Positions 22,213 to 45,951 of a DNA stretch of 64,000 nucleotides are shown one piece after another. The translations under genes and the position numbers were made by a program. Position 1 is the first letter of the stretch. Each line of letters opens with the position of its first letter. Location: positions 1,975,001 to 2,039,000 of the forward strand of contig NZ_CP036276.1 in NCBI RefSeq assembly GCF_007747995.1. The letters are read 5' to 3'. This stretch comes from Symmachiella dynata. Its GTDB lineage: Bacteria > Planctomycetota > Planctomycetia > Planctomycetales > Planctomycetaceae. The notes below the pieces were generated by a model. That model made no database searches. It saw nothing but the letters and a program-made list of their open reading frames with translations, and was not told where the DNA came from.

Positions 22213-22413
22213 CTAATAGCAGTAGGAGCGTTTTTCGTCGTCTTCGCGCGTATTCCAGGCGTCGCCAGGGACCGGATCTTCGACCGAGAAGAGGTAGTGA
22301 TCGCTGCTGGGGCCTTCGCCGCGGTTGAGTAGCTGGCCCGATTCACATCCGACCACAGAACCAAACATCAACGCTGCAAGCGCGCAGAGAGGCAGACATT
22401 GCCGAATTCGCAT
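22213..22413 (-). CDS. Small planctomycete lipoprotein
   Basis: A 66-residue product with a good ribosome binding site (AAGGAG, about 9 bases upstream) and a lipoprotein signal ending GSVVGC. The mature part of about 45 residues is polar and acidic, with a repeated Asp/Glu/Arg context (DAWNTREDDEKRS) and ends in YCY. No family assigned. It stands alone between hisB and the phosphatase/cytochrome gene on the minus strand. The signal peptide and the ribosome binding site make it believable despite its size. Confidence 0.68.
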   Translation of the reverse strand: MRIRQCLPLCALAALMFGSVVGCESGQLLNRGEGPSSDHYLFSVEDPVPGDAWNTREDDEKRSYCY

Positions 22414-22530: not shown

Positions 22531-23520
22531 CTACTTTCCATCCCGAAACGCCGCATGGCATTGCGCGCAGTGGTTTTGCAGCCGCTGCATCAGTTTGGCA
22601 GAATCTTCAATCGTCGTTTGGGAACGGTCTTTTGCCAACGCGCTTAGACGTTTGCTCAGCGCCGTGGCTGCCTCGTTCGCAGCGGACAATTGGCGCAGGT
22701 AGTCACTGCCTTGTTGTTGACTATTCTCGTTGCGAGCCAGTTCGCGAAAATGTTCGGCCAGTTGCAACGCCTCCTGATCCGGCACGATATCGGGATGGTC
22801 GGGCAACGGGCGGAAACCATGCTTTTGAATTTCCTTCAGCAGTTCCCAACGAGTGTTAATTGCCACCATCGACTCAACCGTGGTGGAAAGCTGAGCGGTT
22901 TCGGGAAAGTCGGTCGGCACCTTAGCCAGGTCGTCTTTGGAGGGCATTTGAAACTCACGGACGACGCGAAACAGCCCCGCATATTTGGGCGAGGTCTCCG
23001 CTTCCCGCAACCAGGCCAGAGATTTCTGGTCATCCCATTTTTCCGTTGCCCGACAACAGATTGCTGCGGCAGCGGGACCGCGGTGGCGGCCGTGGTGGCA
23101 ATGCACGAAGACCGGACCAGCAAGCGTTTGCGCCGCTTTGACAATCTGCAACATCCGCTGCGATTCAATGCCATCGTAACCAATCGGCAAATGCACATAC
23201 CGCAGCCCATGTTTGCGCGCAGCTGCCACATCCGGCTTTGTCCCATCCACACTGATAATGGTTTTGACGCCAAGCTTTTTCAATTCACGAAACGCCGCCT
23301 CCCCCTCAGGTTGTGCTCCGCTCAAGAACTTGGGAGACAACCGATGCAACCGGTCAATGGTCGGCGATTGGATGGGCTCGGGAAATTCCTCGCTATGGCA
23401 AAGCACAGGATCGCTCAACAAACAAACCAGCAACCCAATCACCAGCACGCGCAACCGCCGCTGGTCTTTTGCAAAAAAGACGTCGCGCCATCGCGTGGAT
23501 TTCATCAACACAACCATCAT
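22531..23520 (-). CDS. Exported tyrosine-phosphatase-like domain fused to a c-type haem-binding motif
   Basis: The 329-residue product starts at ATG 23520 behind GGAGAGG. The N-terminal membrane/signal segment (RVLVIGLLVCLLSDPVL) is followed by a dual-specificity/tyrosine-phosphatase-like domain, with GVKTIISVDGTKPD and the active site VFVHCHHGRHRGP (Cys141, Arg147; CX5R). The C-terminal 120 residues are helical and end with HCAQCHAAF (318-322), a CxxCH haem-c attachment site as in cytochrome c'/CytC-prime-like helical bundles. Fusion of a phosphatase with a haem motif is unusual. It is the last gene on the phosphonate strand, beginning 69 bases after phnW. An upstream in-frame extension runs through a heptamer repeat and is not used here. 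Confidence 0.83.
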   Translation of the reverse strand: MMVVLMKSTRWRDVFFAKDQRRLRVLVIGLLVCLLSDPVLCHSEEFPEPIQSPTIDRLHRLSPKFLSGAQPEGEAAFRELKKLGVKTIISVDGTKPDVAAARKHGLRYVHLPIGYDGIESQRMLQIVKAAQTLAGPVFVHCHHGRHRGPAAAAICCRATEKWDDQKSLAWLREAETSPKYAGLFRVVREFQMPSKDDLAKVPTDFPETAQLSTTVESMVAINTRWELLKEIQKHGFRPLPDHPDIVPDQEALQLAEHFRELARNENSQQQGSDYLRQLSAANEAATALSKRLSALAKDRSQTTIEDSAKLMQRLQNHCAQCHAAFRDGK

Positions 23521-23543
23521 CGAGCGCCTCTCCTTCACTTTTC

Positions 23544-23579
23544 TGGCCACTGGCCACTGGCCACCGACCACTGGCCACT
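23544..23579. repeat. TGGCCAC heptanucleotide array
   Basis: The unit TGGCCAC repeats with period seven, with one CCGACCA variant in the middle, between phnW and the phosphatase/cytochrome gene. Related arrays lie at 24915-24944, 31151-31183 and 45922-45951. Confidence 0.75.
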
Positions 23580-23588
23580 CACAGCCTG

Positions 23589-24734
23589 TCAGCACGCAGC
23601 CACCATCGTCATGTCCAATTCCATCACCCCGATCGCATCTTCAATGGCCGCCAACAGGTTCTCCACATCAGCCGGGAACATGTGTCCAATGGTGCCGATG
23701 CGGAAACAATCGACGTCGCCCAGTTTGCCGGGATAGATGATGCTGCCCCGTTCTTTAAGCACATTGTAAAACGTGTTGAAATTGAACTTTGGATCCGCGG
23801 GGTAATGAAATGTCGAGATGATGCAGCTTTGTTGTTCCGGCTGTAGGTATTCACGAAAACCGAGCCGTCGCATCCCGGCGATCAGGGTGCGGCGATTTTC
23901 TTCGTACCGTGCCGCACGCCCGGCCATGCCGCCTTCGGCTTCTAGTTCGACCAACGCCTGTTCTAATGCCAGAAAACTATGTGTCGGCGGGGAGTAGCGA
24001 AACCGGCCGTGTGTTTCAAACGCCTGCCATTGATCGAGTAAATCCAGACACAGACTACGGGCATGGCCTTCGCTCGCTTCCAAGACCGCGCGCCGTGCCA
24101 GTACAAACGAGAACCCCGGCACGCCTTGCAGACATTTGTTGGCCGATGAAATCAAATAGTCAATGTGGCAGGCCGGCAAATCAATGGGCAACGCGCCGAA
24201 CGAACTCATCGCATCAACCGTATAAATCCGCCCCGCCGCAGCGACAACATTGCCGATTTCTTCGATCGGATTCACGATCCCCGTCGTCGTCTCGCAATGC
24301 ACGACGATCACGTTCGTAATCTCTGCGTCATCGGCCAAGGTTTGCCGCAATTTTTCGACATCGGGGATTTCATGTTCCTCAGTGCGCAATACCACCTGAT
24401 CGATTTTCAAGTGCTGCGCCATTTTGACAATTCGCTCGCCGTAGGCTCCGTTGACCAGCGACAACATTTTTCCGCCGGGCGGAACGCCGCATCCAATTGC
24501 CGCTTCGACGCCAAACGATCCACTCCCCTGGAGGGGAACCGCTTCGTAACCCGCTGCTTTCGAGACACCGGCGAGCGTCAGCAGTTGGCTGCGAATCCGC
24601 TGCACAATGTCAATAAATTCCTGGTCCCACGACCCCACATCGCGCAACATCGCCTGCTTAACCGTCGGACTGGTCGACAACGGCCCGGGCGTAAAGAGAA
24701 CTTTATCGGGTGGGGAGGTTGGTGTTGAATTCAT
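23589..24734 (-). CDS. phnW: 2-aminoethylphosphonate--pyruvate transaminase
   Basis: PLP enzyme that converts 2-aminoethylphosphonate and pyruvate to phosphonoacetaldehyde and alanine. The 381-residue product has the family opening KVLFTPGPLSTSPTVK (11-26), a cofactor pocket GSGSFGVEAAIG (70-81), HCETTTGIVNP (146-155), DAMSSFG at 174-180, and the Schiff-base lysine in SSANKCLQGVPGFSF (Lys200). The start ATG at 24734 is preferred; an in-frame extension upstream is not homologous. It is followed by TGGCCAC repeats and then the phosphatase/cytochrome gene. phnY and phnA upstream on the same strand complete a hydrolytic route from AEP to acetate. Confidence 0.94.
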   Translation of the reverse strand: MNSTPTSPPDKVLFTPGPLSTSPTVKQAMLRDVGSWDQEFIDIVQRIRSQLLTLAGVSKAAGYEAVPLQGSGSFGVEAAIGCGVPPGGKMLSLVNGAYGERIVKMAQHLKIDQVVLRTEEHEIPDVEKLRQTLADDAEITNVIVVHCETTTGIVNPIEEIGNVVAAAGRIYTVDAMSSFGALPIDLPACHIDYLISSANKCLQGVPGFSFVLARRAVLEASEGHARSLCLDLLDQWQAFETHGRFRYSPPTHSFLALEQALVELEAEGGMAGRAARYEENRRTLIAGMRRLGFREYLQPEQQSCIISTFHYPADPKFNFNTFYNVLKERGSIIYPGKLGDVDCFRIGTIGHMFPADVENLLAAIEDAIGVMELDMTMVAAC

Positions 24735-24801
24735 GAATCTAGTGTTCCAAGAAGAGTGATCCTGACCACCGGCCATTTTGTCTAAATCGCTCACCGATTA
24801 C

Positions 24802-24824
24802 GACCGCAAGCGGTCGATTTGGGA
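24802..24824 (+). repeat. GACCGC-AA-GCGGTC palindromic repeat, solo copy
   Basis: Same 14-base palindrome and following TTTGGGA as at 5815 and 58231 (here GATTTGGGA). It lacks the GTGGCTAA tail. It lies in the phnY-phnW gap just before a GGCTTGA array. Confidence 0.75.
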
Positions 24825-24845
24825 AAACTTCGGCCACTTGGAAGA

Positions 24846-24875
24846 GGCGTGAGGCTTGAGGGGACAGGCTTGAGG
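24846..24875. repeat. GGCTTGA-type heptanucleotide array
   Basis: GGCGTGAGGCTTGAGG followed by GGACAGGCTTGAGG. It shares the interrupted pattern with the array at 980 and is paired with a TGGCCAC array 40 bases further on. Confidence 0.7.
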
Positions 24876-24914
24876 TTGTGGTGGGAGAGCCACAAAACGG
24901 TGCGAACGTCTCTC

Positions 24915-24944
24915 TGGCCACTGGTCACCGACCACTGGCCACTT
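24915..24944. repeat. TGGCCAC heptanucleotide array
   Basis: TGGCCACTGGTCACCGACC followed by ACTGGCCAC, ending three bases before the stop codon of phnY. Confidence 0.7.
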
Positions 24945-24947
24945 AGC

Positions 24948-26378
24948 TTAAAAGGGCAGCGAAAACGTCTTCACGTTCGACATGCACTTCATCGCCTCGA
25001 TAACCCCCTCTTTGATGCCTAGACCGGAATCTTTGACGCCGCCGAAGGGTGAACATTCGATGCGGTAGCCGGGGACTTCATTGATGTTGACCGTGCCGGT
25101 ACGAATGCCTTTGACCGCCCGCAGCGCATGGTCCAGGCTGTCGGTGACGACGCCTGAGGACAAACCGAAATCGGTGGCGTTGGCCAATTCGATCGCATCA
25201 TCGATATCACGGACCGACATGATCGGCGCCAGCGGGCCGAACGATTCACAAACCACCATCTCCGCATCGCGAGGGACATCCGCAATGACCGTTGGCGACA
25301 ACTGTGCACCGCGCCGCTCGCCGCCCAGCAGTACCTTGGCCCCAGCAGCGACCGCATCGTTGACAACCGACTCCAATCGCATCGCCGCCGCTTCGTCAAT
25401 CACGGTCCCCACGCGCGTCTGTTCCTCGGCCGGATTGCCGACAACGTACTCTGCTGCCCGTTCCACAAATCGCTGTGTGAATTCGGCAAGGATTTTCTCG
25501 TGCACCAACAACCGTTTGACGGCCGTGCACCGTTGGCCGGAATTGCGGAAACACCCCTCGGCCGCCAAATGAACGGCCAAGTCCATGTCGGCATCGTCAA
25601 GAATGATCAGCGGCGAATTTCCGCCCAATTCCAACACGACCTTTTTGTATCCGGCTTCGTGGGCGATCTGTTTGCCGATGTTGACGCTGCCGGTGAAGGT
25701 GACCAATTCCACACGGGGATCAGTCACCATGGTTTTCGCCACCTCGTCTAATGGTCCCAGCAGCACGCTCAACATCCAACCGGGCAGTCCCGCTTCGTAG
25801 AGCAACTCCGCACAGCGAATGGCGGTGAGCGGGGTTTTTTCCGATGGCTTGAGCAAGACCGGCGCGCCGGCGGCAATTGCCGGTGCCAATTTGTGGACGA
25901 CCTGATTCAATGGATGATTAAAAGGCGTGATCGCCGAGATCAATTTCACCGGTTCGCGCACCGTGAATATCTTCCGCGCCTTGCCGGTCGGGGAGACGTC
26001 GCAGGAGAAAATCTGCCCGTCATCCTTCAGGGCTTCCATGGCGGCGAATTGAAACACATCGCTCGCCCGGCCGACTTCGTAGCGTGTTTCCCGCAGGCAG
26101 AGTCCCGATTCGGCACAGATCAACCGCGCGAAGGCATCGCTGCGTTCCAATAGTAGGTCGCGGGCTGCGTTGAGAATCTCGTACCGCCGGTACCGTGACA
26201 ACGGTTCGCCACCCTCAAGTGCCGCTTGGATGGCCTGCTCTGTCTCAGCCGGTGTGACCTGCGCAACCTGGGCGATGACTTCGTTGTTGTAAGGATTCGT
26301 AACGTCAAAAGTCGTGCTCGACGCAACAGCCTTGCCGGCGACGAAACAGGGGAATATGTCGTCCAAAATACTGCGCAC
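24948..26378 (-). CDS. phnY: Phosphonoacetaldehyde dehydrogenase, ALDH family
   Basis: NAD-dependent oxidation of phosphonoacetaldehyde to phosphonoacetate, the branch that replaces phosphonatase (PhnX). The 476-residue ALDH-family protein has the catalytic Asn in TPFNHPLN (Asn154), LELGGNSP (Glu250) and the catalytic cysteine in NSGQRCTAV (Cys284), plus GTVNINEVPG and an SPFGGVKDSGLG closing. Family (general ALDH) is certain. The phosphonoacetaldehyde substrate is inferred from being bracketed by phnA and phnW. It begins with a GTG at 26378. Other ALDHs such as a lactaldehyde-type enzyme would look similar. Confidence 0.86.
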   Translation of the reverse strand: MRSILDDIFPCFVAGKAVASSTTFDVTNPYNNEVIAQVAQVTPAETEQAIQAALEGGEPLSRYRRYEILNAARDLLLERSDAFARLICAESGLCLRETRYEVGRASDVFQFAAMEALKDDGQIFSCDVSPTGKARKIFTVREPVKLISAITPFNHPLNQVVHKLAPAIAAGAPVLLKPSEKTPLTAIRCAELLYEAGLPGWMLSVLLGPLDEVAKTMVTDPRVELVTFTGSVNIGKQIAHEAGYKKVVLELGGNSPLIILDDADMDLAVHLAAEGCFRNSGQRCTAVKRLLVHEKILAEFTQRFVERAAEYVVGNPAEEQTRVGTVIDEAAAMRLESVVNDAVAAGAKVLLGGERRGAQLSPTVIADVPRDAEMVVCESFGPLAPIMSVRDIDDAIELANATDFGLSSGVVTDSLDHALRAVKGIRTGTVNINEVPGYRIECSPFGGVKDSGLGIKEGVIEAMKCMSNVKTFSLPF

Positions 26379-26485
26379 CTATCAGAATTCAGCTTGGATG
26401 GAGCCAGTCGGCTATGGATTCGATGACGGTACAGGATTCACGCGCACCGTATAAAAAAATATTGAAATCTTACCACTCAGTAAAA

Positions 26486-27496
26486 CTATTCCGCCTTCGA
26501 TTCGGCAGTTGATTCGTCTGCTGCTTCTGTGGCCGGCTCGAGTACGTAACCTTCAATCGGATCAGCGGTGTCGGAGGACCATTCGCCATCCGGTCCTAAC
26601 TCTCCGCTAGTTTCCAAGGAGAAGGAAATATCGAGCGTCTTGCCCAACTCAACGATCGGCTTGCCATTTTCGTCGACCAGAAATCCTTTCATTGGAAAAC
26701 AGATCTCGGCTTCATGCTCGTCTCTAGAAATCGCTCCGGTCACTATCCCATGCACGATCGGTCCTTTATCGAGCACAAAGGTAATCGTGTCGTCCTTGTG
26801 GTAGACCCACTGCGTGTATTTTTTGTAGGTACCCGGTTTCAGCCGCATGAATCCCGCAGGGTAGGGACCATCCTTGCCCTTCACGTATTTCCCCGACGAT
26901 TGCTCCAAAAATGCTTCTTGCAACTCGGCATCGTCGAGGCAGCAGTGATTCAAATAGGGCGCCGCATTGAATTCGCCGTTGTACCATTCCACTTCGCAAT
27001 TCACGTCGTAGCCTCGCGAGGTGGGATAGTAGCCCCCCTCGTGTAGCCAATATCCGGTTTCGTCGTTGTTATCGACGTCGATGGTCAAGATGGCATAAAA
27101 CCGCCCGGCAACGCGTACCTTCGGGGCTTTGCCCCTCCCGCGCCTGCGACGGCGGCGTGTGTTGACCGGTCCGGTCGCGCCGCGCTGCGTCCGGCCGAAT
27201 TTTCCTGTCGTTTTAAAATAAGCGTAGAGATTCTCCGCATCGTGCGTGAATTTGAACTCGATCAAATCCGCCCCGGGATTCCGCACCGTCTTGGGTTTGT
27301 AGTCTTTGGTTTCTCCATCGGTATCGTGTGAGTCATACGCTGGATCCGTGTATTTGGGCAATTTGGCCCAGTCGAGAAATTTGCCATCGATCTTGATTTC
27401 CGAAGGCGGCGCAGCAACGCTCGTTATCGCCCCGCCCAAGGTCAGCACCATTACCGGCAAGATCCAGCTGCTCATTCGAATAAGTCGCGTGCTCAT
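26486..27496 (-). CDS. Secreted protein inside the phosphonate cluster, carbohydrate-binding-like beta-sandwich, unknown function
   Basis: The 336-residue product has a clean signal peptide (SSWILPVMVLTLGGAITSVAA) and no lipobox. The mature part starts SEIKIDGKFLDWAKLPKYTDP, the opening seen in CBM9-like/DOMON-related exported beta-sandwich domains (IDG...W). It continues with EFKFTHDAENLYAYFKT. An arginine-rich insertion (RRRRRRGRGK, near 117-126) separates two beta regions. ILTIDVDNNDETGYW suggests a calcium-type site. The C-terminus is an acidic tail. No catalytic signature is seen. It lies between phnA and phnY on the same strand and may bind phosphonate-decorated glycans or handle substrate outside the cell; this is inference. 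Confidence 0.8.
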   Translation of the reverse strand: MSTRLIRMSSWILPVMVLTLGGAITSVAAPPSEIKIDGKFLDWAKLPKYTDPAYDSHDTDGETKDYKPKTVRNPGADLIEFKFTHDAENLYAYFKTTGKFGRTQRGATGPVNTRRRRRRGRGKAPKVRVAGRFYAILTIDVDNNDETGYWLHEGGYYPTSRGYDVNCEVEWYNGEFNAAPYLNHCCLDDAELQEAFLEQSSGKYVKGKDGPYPAGFMRLKPGTYKKYTQWVYHKDDTITFVLDKGPIVHGIVTGAISRDEHEAEICFPMKGFLVDENGKPIVELGKTLDISFSLETSGELGPDGEWSSDTADPIEGYVLEPATEAADESTAESKAE

Positions 27497-27661
27497 CGAT
27501 CCCAAGTTCCTCGCTTGCAAACTCTTAACAGCGTAAAAAAAGTCACACACCGGACATTAAACCGGCAAGCCACGATTGTAACAGCCCACGCAGCCTGCGT
27601 ATCTAGGCTCGGGCGGGTTTCACCAGAATTTCATCGTCAGGTATTGGGCGGCACGAACGAC

Positions 27662-27692
27662 TCCTCAGGCCTGTCCTCGCAAGCCTCACGGC
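27662..27692 (-). repeat. Reverse-orientation relative of the GGCTTGA array, holding the phnA stop codon
   Basis: Over about 30 bases this matches the reverse complement of the array at 24846-24875 with about four differences. On the minus strand the TGA in GTGAGGCTTG is the stop codon of phnA. Confidence 0.6.
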
Positions 27693-28939
27693 TTTGTCCC
27701 ATTGACGGCGAAATCGAATACGTCGAAATTTCGCGGATCGCCACTCGCCTTGCGGCAGTACGCATCGTTCAATGGTTCCGAGACCAGCAGCGGGACCATC
27801 TCCTCGTATCGTCCGCCATGCGAGCGGAGTCCACTGGCAACGGCTTTGAGATCATGGTGCTCCGGGGACCGACCCAACACAACGTCGCGGCCCGACAGCA
27901 CGACCAAGTCGCCGATCCGATCGGGGGCCAGTTCCAGTTTACGGACCGCCGAAGCTCGGCAATGGACTTCCGTAATCCCCTCGATTTCCATCAGCCGAGA
28001 AATTACTGGATCGGTCCGCACCGAATCGGGCAGGTGCACCATAGCCAACGACCCCAACGCCCCGTGATGCGCGACGTAGGGATCGGTGATCGGCAGAATG
28101 ACCTTGATGTTTGCGTCGAATTCTTCGGCCAACAGCGGTTCAAGGTAAATCACATTCGGACTGCCGTCTGCAGTTTGTTTGGCGTTCATACCATGATCGG
28201 CGGTTGCCGCCACGATCGCACCGGCATCAAGCAGTCGTCCGATCTCGCGGTCGATCCCCGCATGGAACTCCAATGATTCTTCTTGCCAGGGATCAAACTT
28301 GTGTTGCATAAAGTCAGTCAGTGACAGATACAAAAAATCGGCCCGTCCCTGTTCGACCAATGCGGCTCCCGCTTGGAGCACATATAAACTGGCGTCGCCG
28401 CTATAAATCTCCGGCGTGGGGGCACCGACCAGTTCTTCGACGTCGTCGATACCGTGCGTGGACAGCTGGGCTTCGTTTGCCTTCTCCGCCGAAAAAGCGA
28501 TGCCCGTTAAGTTGTGCGACAAAATATCCCGCAGTTTCTCTTTGGCCGTGACCATCGCAACCTTGCGTCCCGCATTGGCCGCAGCAGCCAGAATCGTTTC
28601 GGCCCGTAGATATTTGGCCGAATTCATCATCACCTCTTCACCCGTATCGGGATCGAGGAAGAAGTTGCCGCAAATCCCATGCACCGCTGGAGCGACGCCA
28701 GTGCAGATCGATGAATTATTCACGTTCGTAAACGACGGCAACGCCCCGCGCACCAGCCCGCGATATCCCTCACCAGCAATTCGCGCCACGTTTGGCATGC
28801 GGCCTTTGGCGATCGAGATGCTGAGATATTCGTCCGCACAGCCATCGATACAAATCACCACAATCGGCCGCGCAGGCGGACGATAGGTGCGGTCATTGAT
28901 GGTAAATTCTTGGGTGGAGATGTCGCCGAATGTGGTCAT
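27686..28939 (-). CDS. phnA: Phosphonoacetate hydrolase
   Basis: Zinc enzyme of the alkaline phosphatase superfamily that hydrolyses the C-P bond of phosphonoacetate to acetate and phosphate. The 417-residue product has VVICIDGCADEY (metal ligand Asp32), the nucleophile threonine in LPSFTNVNN (Thr71), GVAPAVHGICGNFFLDP typical of PhnA, a FDP-containing DFMQHKFDPWQ segment with Asp and His ligands, and TADHGMN with a further Asp-His pair. The ATG at 28939 follows AGGA at short spacing; a TTG 24 bases upstream is in frame but less likely. First gene of the phosphonate cluster. The stop codon lies in a GGCTTGA-type repeat. Confidence 0.93.
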   Translation of the reverse strand: MTTFGDISTQEFTINDRTYRPPARPIVVICIDGCADEYLSISIAKGRMPNVARIAGEGYRGLVRGALPSFTNVNNSSICTGVAPAVHGICGNFFLDPDTGEEVMMNSAKYLRAETILAAAANAGRKVAMVTAKEKLRDILSHNLTGIAFSAEKANEAQLSTHGIDDVEELVGAPTPEIYSGDASLYVLQAGAALVEQGRADFLYLSLTDFMQHKFDPWQEESLEFHAGIDREIGRLLDAGAIVAATADHGMNAKQTADGSPNVIYLEPLLAEEFDANIKVILPITDPYVAHHGALGSLAMVHLPDSVRTDPVISRLMEIEGITEVHCRASAVRKLELAPDRIGDLVVLSGRDVVLGRSPEHHDLKAVASGLRSHGGRYEEMVPLLVSEPLNDAYCRKASGDPRNFDVFDFAVNGTKP

Positions 28940-29097
28940 GTGTCCTAATCGTTTTCCATTCAATCACAAGCATTTTCCAGTGGCGATGCACCACCAGAAT
29001 CAAATCTCAAACACAAACCAACACCGTAACGCCCCCCACCGATCAAGACAATCCACGCCTCCCAATTCCCAAGCCAGATTGTGCTCTAAGTTGAAGT

Positions 29098-29543: not shown

Positions 29544-30542
29544 TTACTCCACCGACACCAACGTTCGTCCAGCGACTTCGCCGCGTAAGATCTTTTGCAC
29601 CGAAGGCTCGATGTCGGCCAATGGCACTGTCTCGGTGAAGTCCGCTAGCTTGTCCAACCGCCATGCGCCGCCGAGTTTTTCCCACAACTTCAAACGCAAA
29701 TCGCGCGGATACCATCCCGAGTCGATCCCCACCAACACCGCTCCGCGGAGGATGAATGGAAACACGGTCATGTTCAATTTCGGCCCCGCCACCAAACCGC
29801 AACAGGTCACGCAGCCGCGCAGGTCGGTCGCTCGCAGGATCGATGTCAGCATGTCGCCGCCGACACAATCGACCGCCCCCGCCCAACGTGCGGACAACAG
29901 CGGCCGCGAACTGTCATCCAAGATCTCATCCCGACCGACGACATCGGTGGCACCAAATTCCTTAAGCTGCGCGTGCATGCTTTCTTTGCCGGTCACAGCG
30001 ATGACCTGATAGCCCAGTTGGGCCAGCAGCATCACAGCAATGCAGCCCACGCCGCCGGTCGCTCCGGTGACCACAATCTTTCCGCCCGCCGGTTCGATAC
30101 CGTGATCCACGATCGCTTGTACCGACATCGCCGCGGTGAACCCCGCCGTGCCGTAGTGCATTGCCGACTCCAACGTGAGTCCGTCCGGCAAGGGAATCAC
30201 CCATTCGGCCGGCACGCGAATGTATTCCGACCAGCCGCCCCATTGGCCGGCGCCCAGGTCATAGCCGGTGACAATTACCGATTGTCCGGCCTGAAAATCG
30301 GCATGGCTGCTTTCGGCGACCGTCCCGGCCGCATCAATCCCCGGCACGTGCGGATATTTCTTCGCCACCCCCGGCTGCCCCGTCGCTGCCAGCCCATCTT
30401 TGAAATTCAAAGAGGACCACTGCACACGGATCAACACCTCCCCCTCCGGCAAAGCCGCCAACGGCCGCCGCGTCATCCCGGCACGGACGGTGCCATCTTC
30501 GTCTTTTTCCACAAGATAACAGGCAAATGGTTCGGTCGACAT
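29544..30542 (-). CDS. YhdH/AcuI-type MDR oxidoreductase
   Basis: Zinc-free medium-chain NADPH-dependent reductase of about 332 residues; AcuI members reduce acryloyl-CoA. Seen are SSLNFKDGLAATG near 44-56, VPGIDAAGTV, TGYDLGAGQWGGWSEYIRVP, the dinucleotide-binding VTGATGGVGCIAV and GIDSGW near the end. All are typical of the YhdH/AcuI branch. Start ATG 30542 (residue 1 MSTEPFACY); upstream in-frame sequence does not look coding. It begins eight bases after the stop of the membrane-protein gene at 30551, so both could share a transcript. The CoA substrate is not proven by sequence. Confidence 0.9.
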   Translation of the reverse strand: MSTEPFACYLVEKDEDGTVRAGMTRRPLAALPEGEVLIRVQWSSLNFKDGLAATGQPGVAKKYPHVPGIDAAGTVAESSHADFQAGQSVIVTGYDLGAGQWGGWSEYIRVPAEWVIPLPDGLTLESAMHYGTAGFTAAMSVQAIVDHGIEPAGGKIVVTGATGGVGCIAVMLLAQLGYQVIAVTGKESMHAQLKEFGATDVVGRDEILDDSSRPLLSARWAGAVDCVGGDMLTSILRATDLRGCVTCCGLVAGPKLNMTVFPFILRGAVLVGIDSGWYPRDLRLKLWEKLGGAWRLDKLADFTETVPLADIEPSVQKILRGEVAGRTLVSVE

Positions 30543-30550
30543 ATTTAAGC

Positions 30551-31150: not shown

Positions 31151-31183
31151 TGGCCACCGGCCACCGGCCACTAACCACTCACC
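31151..31183. repeat. TGGCCAC heptanucleotide array
   Basis: TGGCCACCGGCCACCGGCC and continuation ACTAACCACTCACC, period seven, about 90 bases before the sulfatase start. Confidence 0.75.
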
Positions 31184-45921: not shown

Positions 45922-45951
45922 TGGCCACCGGCCACTCACCACCGGCCACTC
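45922..45951. repeat. TGGCCAC heptanucleotide array
   Basis: TGGCCACCGGCCACTCACC and ACCGGCCACTC, ending ten bases before the kinase start. Confidence 0.75.

Follow-up and report, generated by a model that had tools for sequence, protein, structure and literature searches.

A predicted cluster for 2-aminoethylphosphonate breakdown in Symmachiella dynata

A 64,000-nucleotide stretch of the Symmachiella dynata genome (family Planctomycetaceae; assembly GCF_007747995.1, contig NZ_CP036276.1, positions 1,975,001 to 2,039,000; hereafter, the window) carries a cluster of five intact open reading frames (ORFs), all located on the minus strand and ordered, in the direction of transcription, as phnA, a gene for a predicted exported beta-sandwich protein, phnY, phnW, and DSPcyt, the last encoding a putative exported phosphatase fused with a cytochrome c'-type domain. 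This layout agrees with a preliminary description of the window, in which the three phn genes and two companions were recognized on one strand. The best explanation, to which we assign a probability of about 0.75, is that the cluster encodes the PhnWAY route of 2-aminoethylphosphonate (AEP) breakdown, that the beta-sandwich gene is incidental, and that DSPcyt was kept downstream of phnY-phnW within the genus. The cluster would be an ordinary known pathway in a new place, accompanied by one genus-level candidate accessory. The PhnWAY route is thereby placed in a planctomycete genus that lacks PhnX, whose route is common in the order; PhnA is rare in this order and shows signs of more than one entry into the family. 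The cluster also brings to attention a widespread phosphatase-cytochrome c' family.

The three pathway enzymes

The products of phnA (27686..28963, minus strand; likely ATG start at 28939) and phnW (23589..24794, minus strand) were assigned to phosphonoacetate hydrolases and 2-aminoethylphosphonate--pyruvate transaminases with scores over the curated cut-offs, i.e., 522.2 bits vs. 407.55 for TIGR02335 and 486.3 bits vs. 400.8 for TIGR02326, respectively. For the product of phnY (24948..26378, minus strand), the best model was that of phosphonoacetaldehyde dehydrogenase, TIGR03250, with the runner-up NCBIfam model (442.2 bits) lying 191 bits under it. The nearest solved chains were 1ei6 (phosphonoacetate hydrolase; 399.6 bits) for PhnA, which aligned over its full length with 1ei6 and 3szy, 4i3t (PhnY; 462.7 bits, the next chain reaching 328.6) for PhnY, and 1m32 (AEP transaminase; 383.3 bits) for PhnW. 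In the alignments with the solved chains, motifs are kept around the residues which we take to be the catalytic cysteine, the metal ligands, and the pyridoxal phosphate lysine.

Judging from family membership and active-site motifs, PhnW would convert AEP and pyruvate into phosphonoacetaldehyde and alanine, PhnY would oxidise the aldehyde with NAD to phosphonoacetate, and PhnA would hydrolyse the latter to acetate and phosphate. The predicted phosphonoacetate route, proposed in the preliminary description, is backed by the family scores, by the active-site motifs in the alignments, and by the surrounding genes. No export signal was seen by eye at the N-termini of PhnW, PhnY, and PhnA, which should act in the cytoplasm, with the two companions outside it.

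The PhnWAY route from AEP through phosphonoacetaldehyde and phosphonoacetate to acetate and phosphate is outlined in two published works (PMC8154272, PMC10574752). In the systems covered there, as in the genome of the window, the three enzymes are clustered and PhnX and C-P lyase are missing; unlike them, the window shows no transporter or regulator, and it contains the beta-sandwich gene between phnA and phnY and DSPcyt after phnW.

The comparison set consisted of 80 PhnA loci of other bacteria, 54 of which had at least 5 kb on both sides; two of the loci (L177 and L210), taken as records of the surveyed genomes G099 and G100, were kept among the 80. A PhnY-type gene was present in 74/80 loci (in one of them, L171, just 30% identical) and PhnW in 39/80. 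It should be added that three (G092-G094) of the 11 genomes with PhnY in the order carry a protein of 53-54% identity, with neither PhnA nor PhnW nearby.

Phosphonate genes across the order

The survey covered 170 genomes of the order, including three members of the genus, i.e., that of the window (G000; 7.77 Mb, one contig), its 97%-identical congener G151, and G152. PhnX exceeded its cut-off in 87 of the 170 genomes and PhnW in 34, and PhnA was found over the cut-off in six (G000, G151, G099, G100, G101, and G005); in one more genome, G073, PhnA is split across two contigs. None of these seven genomes had a PhnX match (hypergeometric P 0.005, with just four genera represented and so a smaller effective sample). 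In all three genus members PhnX was missing at E 1e-20, and the PhnWAY route would occupy there the place where many relatives have PhnX. PhnJ was found in 0/170 genomes, with the E. coli control positive. The earlier statement that the cluster occurs without PhnX or C-P lyase holds for the entire G000 genome, in which neither PhnX nor PhnJ was matched at E 1e-20. PMC9381506 lists Planctomycetes among the bacteria that have substrate-specific phosphonate catabolism, naming Planctomycetia in the case of phnX, and PMC10574752 mentions Gimesia maris, a planctomycete, as having a PhnY*/PhnZ pair.

No phosphonate transporter or regulator had been noticed in the window, and at E 1e-4 it indeed contained no match to any of three probes that came from PhnA loci elsewhere, namely an MFS transporter, an XRE-cupin regulator, and a membrane protein of 436 residues. 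PhnD-type binding proteins gave no match in the whole G000 genome at E 1e-10. AEP uptake must depend on a transporter encoded elsewhere in the genome, the PhnD type being excluded at that threshold.

It is highly improbable that PhnW serves AEP biosynthesis instead of breakdown. PhnW and PepM do share one contig in two genomes (G018 and G049), but PepM exceeded its cut-off in only 3/170 genomes, none of them within this genus, and its matches in G000 (119.2 and 118.1 bits vs. the cut-off of 319.55) are so far below it that biosynthesis was rejected. Sub-cut-off PepM matches were also seen in 5 of 14 control genomes, and the presence of PhnY and PhnA beside PhnW indicates breakdown.

The phosphatase-cytochrome c' family

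In DSPcyt (22531..23520, minus strand), an export-type N-terminus (recognized by eye) precedes a PTP/DSP domain, to which a helical domain is joined on the C-terminal side. The alignment of the family contained 28 rows, all drawn from the best-scoring 30 places; from 36 loci, L062 (the same as the window), L084, L091, and the duplicates L106-L111 were omitted. Both HCHHGxxR, an HCX5R motif, and the C-terminal CXXCH are invariant in the 28 rows, which bears out the earlier recognition of a terminal phosphatase/haem-motif fusion.

The predicted structure of DSPcyt (pLDDT 91.1) had TpbA (4r0s) as its best match (Z 17.1, rmsd 2.9, 154 residues), in a comparison that concerns model residues 49-204, the phosphatase portion, and has little bearing on the C-terminal one. 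DSPcyt combines a predicted PTP/DSP fold with the HCX5R motif; it scored below the cut-offs of the Pfam PTP/DSP families (17.4 bits vs. the gathering score of 33.5 for DSPc, PF00782) and is therefore not filed as a member of any of them. TpbA of Pseudomonas aeruginosa is a periplasmic dual-specificity phosphatase (PMC4409338). DSPcyt is like TpbA in its predicted fold, motif, and export, but the two proteins are 24% identical and the C-terminal haem-motif domain is an addition of DSPcyt.

A profile built of 24 C-terminal parts retrieved cytochrome c' chains (best E 7.4e-6), and the Pfam cytochrome c' family (PF01322) matched 20/28 DSPcyt members at E 0.01, with the window protein itself at 19.1 bits, under the gathering score of 26.5. 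As in cytochrome c' (e.g., 3vrc), CXXCH is placed near the C-terminus of a helical domain, but in DSPcyt this domain is fused behind a phosphatase. These similarities point to a cytochrome c'-type domain with putative haem binding.

DSPcyt was matched in 106 genomes at E 0.001 and, after four weak matches (G001, G035, G051, and G089) were dropped, in 102/170 genomes at E 1.6e-30 or better (manual count). The 36 loci, most of which had flanks of 1.5 kb, showed outside the genus no neighbouring gene that was shared by more than five of them. No description of a haem-controlled periplasmic phosphatase was found in the open-access PMC literature, and this family, widespread in the order, is apparently uncharacterised. 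With low confidence, it may be suggested that DSPcyt most likely dephosphorylates extracytoplasmic targets (phosphoesters), perhaps with modulation by haem. It cannot replace any step of PhnWAY.

Linkage of DSPcyt and phnW within the genus

DSPcyt adjoins phnW in all three genus members. In G000 and G151, a small lipoprotein-like ORF (window 22413-22213) comes next, ahead of hisB-hisC. In G152, contig C19 carries phnY (truncated at the end of the contig), phnW, and DSPcyt side by side, the latter two separated by 12 bases, and hisC, hisB, and the lipoprotein-like ORF are carried by contig C41, of which 19 kb were read and contained neither DSPcyt nor any phn gene. The phnY-phnW-DSPcyt unit thus stayed together through changed surroundings while its proteins diverged, the identities between G000/G151 and G152 being 87% for PhnY, 74% for PhnW, and 45% for DSPcyt. 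This is modest evidence that the three genes are a kept unit and makes DSPcyt a candidate genus-level accessory; a member of an exported family widespread in the order would have become the gene downstream of phnY-phnW in this genus and would then have been retained.

There is a considerable chance, somewhat short of even, that DSPcyt and the beta-sandwich gene are both unrelated passengers and that the DSPcyt-phnW linkage was inherited by chance. DSPcyt is common in the order, and among the 22 genomes having both PhnW and DSPcyt the two are neighbours in the three genus members and were not so seen in the other 19 (manual count), in which they lie on different contigs (nine genomes, where they could still adjoin across a contig end) or share a contig at a distance of over 450 kb (10 genomes). 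Moreover, the three linked copies were united in a single clade (95/89) in the tree of the 28 rows, which means that the linkage could go back to one event. Chance inheritance is, however, less consistent with a linkage kept in two different surroundings while PhnW and DSPcyt diverged to the extent given above.

A PhnWAY pathway with an incidental beta-sandwich gene and a retained DSPcyt is the reading that we prefer, and several points weigh against it. The TIGR03250 score of PhnY (633.4 bits) is 2.25 below the cut-off of 635.65. The DSPcyt linkage is known from three genomes, all of one genus, and from two contexts. The G152 contig ends inside phnY, so that phnA and the beta-sandwich gene cannot be judged there, and a search of this genome with the first 200 residues of PhnY returned only aldehyde dehydrogenases of 37% identity or less; G152 has, in addition, two PhnD-type matches (80.4 and 54.8 bits, both below the cut-off of 112.05). 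Finally, G000 is without PhnX, PhnJ, and PhnD-type proteins, but PhnY*/PhnZ, PbfA, and AepXVW/AepP/AepSTU were not searched, and it may have other AEP routes and an uptake system of another type.

A bolder and rather unlikely proposal is that DSPcyt truly assists this genus in using AEP, as an exported phosphatase dependent on its cytochrome c'-type haem (redox state, nitric oxide, or carbon monoxide). If so, it would couple extracellular phosphorus scavenging to the respiratory state, and its family in 102 genomes of the order would consist of haem-controlled periplasmic phosphatases.

The exported beta-sandwich companion

The gene between phnA and phnY (26486..27496, minus strand) had been described as encoding a secreted beta-sandwich-like protein, and a beta-sandwich is indeed predicted for its product (pLDDT 81.4; model built from an alignment of 27 rows out of 32 places), the N-terminus of which is of the export type (by eye). 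It showed no relevant Pfam family up to E 1 (CBM9 included) and no NCBIfam family, and a profile search of the PDB gave one match (E 0.023), taken as chance. The model matched Sas6/CBM74, ethylbenzene dehydrogenase gamma, CBM9, nitrite oxidoreductase C, and glucodextranase (Z 9.3-11.6), with Z 9.9-10.6 for CBM9 chains vs. an immunoglobulin background of 6.8 and below. The predicted fold is shared with CBM9 and ethylbenzene dehydrogenase gamma (7nwn, 1i82, and 2ivf; Z 9.9-11.5), but the identity is just 8-12% and the companion itself matches no Pfam family. The CBM9/EbdC-type fold carries sugar in one of these proteins and haem in the other. The companion has a predicted CBM9/ethylbenzene-dehydrogenase-gamma-like fold and is a putative carbohydrate-type binding domain.

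Relatives of this protein were found in 14/170 genomes, its own included. The family is used in giant surface proteins; two large ones that were scanned (1,210 and 2,166 residues) contain PKD and RTX, or FG-GAP, GEVED, and DUF11 parts. A 633-residue ORF of G042 has an alpha/beta-hydrolase-like front (by eye) and the beta-sandwich at its C-terminal side. Standalone copies adjoin a sulfatase gene (L103) or M23/PKD, BNR, and beta-helix genes (L104 and L105).

Neither companion was matched at E 1e-3 in the 80 PhnA loci, or at E 1e-6 in the phn loci of G099, G100, G101, and G005 and the split locus of G073, in keeping with the earlier remark that they are not standard phn members. Conservation beside phnW/Y/A, expected for both, held within the genus for DSPcyt (3/3), and a beta-sandwich gene between phnA and phnY was seen only in G000 and G151. 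As a conserved phn gene the latter was ruled out by its absence from the phn loci of other genera and from the 80 PhnA loci. Elsewhere phnA and phnY are usually close together, and an incidental insertion between them is the most likely origin of the gene.

It was also considered whether all five genes form one unit, in which the beta-sandwich protein captures extracellular phosphonate-bearing polymers and DSPcyt processes or senses the released products. The common strand, the intergenic gaps of 189, 107, 153, and 68 bases (in transcription order), the exported appearance of both companions, and the position of DSPcyt beside phnW in three of three congeners would suit such a unit. It is nevertheless improbable, as 0/80 PhnA loci elsewhere carry either companion, the proteins and neighbours of the beta-sandwich relatives have no phn link in the loci read, and no phosphonate-polymer-cleaving protein is present in the gene set. 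Nothing was found that would link either companion with extracellular phosphonate polymers, as had been supposed; the enzymes look cytoplasmic and the companions exported. The view of both as pathway companions is, in consequence, mostly not supported.

Origin of PhnA and other phn loci

The PhnA tree (83 proteins, quick method, 27 of 80 forks open, L177 and L210 left out) placed the copies of the family in three places. PhnA of G099 and G101 were grouped (98) inside a branch with Verrucomicrobiales (93), PhnA of G005 was sister to one Verrucomicrobiales sequence (100), and the window PhnA grouped with that of G151, the position of their branch not being resolved in this tree. The simplest reading is that PhnA was acquired horizontally more than once in the family.

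Other arrangements of phn genes were also observed. G005 (L096:9575-14531) has a row of phnA, a GlpT-like MFS gene, an HpnZ-type alcohol dehydrogenase gene (312.8 bits vs. the cut-off of 328.1), and phnY. PhnW was not matched in this genome at E 1e-90, nor was PhnX at E 1e-20, and the row would fit a route from 2-hydroxyethylphosphonate and not from AEP. In G073 (L097:16458-19687), phnA-phnY is followed by a gene for an iron-type alcohol dehydrogenase (best NCBIfam model TIGR03405, 188 bits vs. the cut-off of 423.7), and PhnW is encoded on a separate contig. In G075 (L228:7754-11459) and G013 (C35:16320-19877), genes for a PhnA-like protein (172 and 181 bits, respectively) and for a binding protein of the PhnD-like kind (109 and 99 bits) lie close to each other, all four scores being below the cut-offs, and the ORFs between them resemble parts of ABC transporters (by eye). 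In G101 and G100 (L094:9399-11534 and L095:5446-7581), phnW is followed by genes for a 437-residue protein, for which no Pfam or NCBIfam family was found, and for a creatininase-family protein.

Composition and surroundings of the cluster

The GC3 values of the five genes (0.62-0.70) are similar to those of the window ORFs (mean 0.653, sd 0.036, for 24 ORFs longer than 350 residues), by which a foreign base composition was ruled out. The promoter scan gave five sites vs. a shuffle mean of 4.2, and the terminator scan 12 vs. 10.6. The upstream acrylyl-CoA-reductase-like gene (29544-30545) was dismissed as a phn partner, being the best match in 0/80 PhnA loci at E 1e-15. The 66-residue lipoprotein-like ORF (22213-22413, minus strand) sits between DSPcyt and hisB; its copy is 91% identical in G151 and 51% identical in G152, where it is also found beside hisB. 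Short repeat arrays of the GTGGCCA type occur at window positions 23543-23578, 24916-24942, 31152-31178, and 45923-45949 (10 matches observed vs. 0.01 expected); one array lies in the phnW-DSPcyt gap and another in the phnY-phnW gap.

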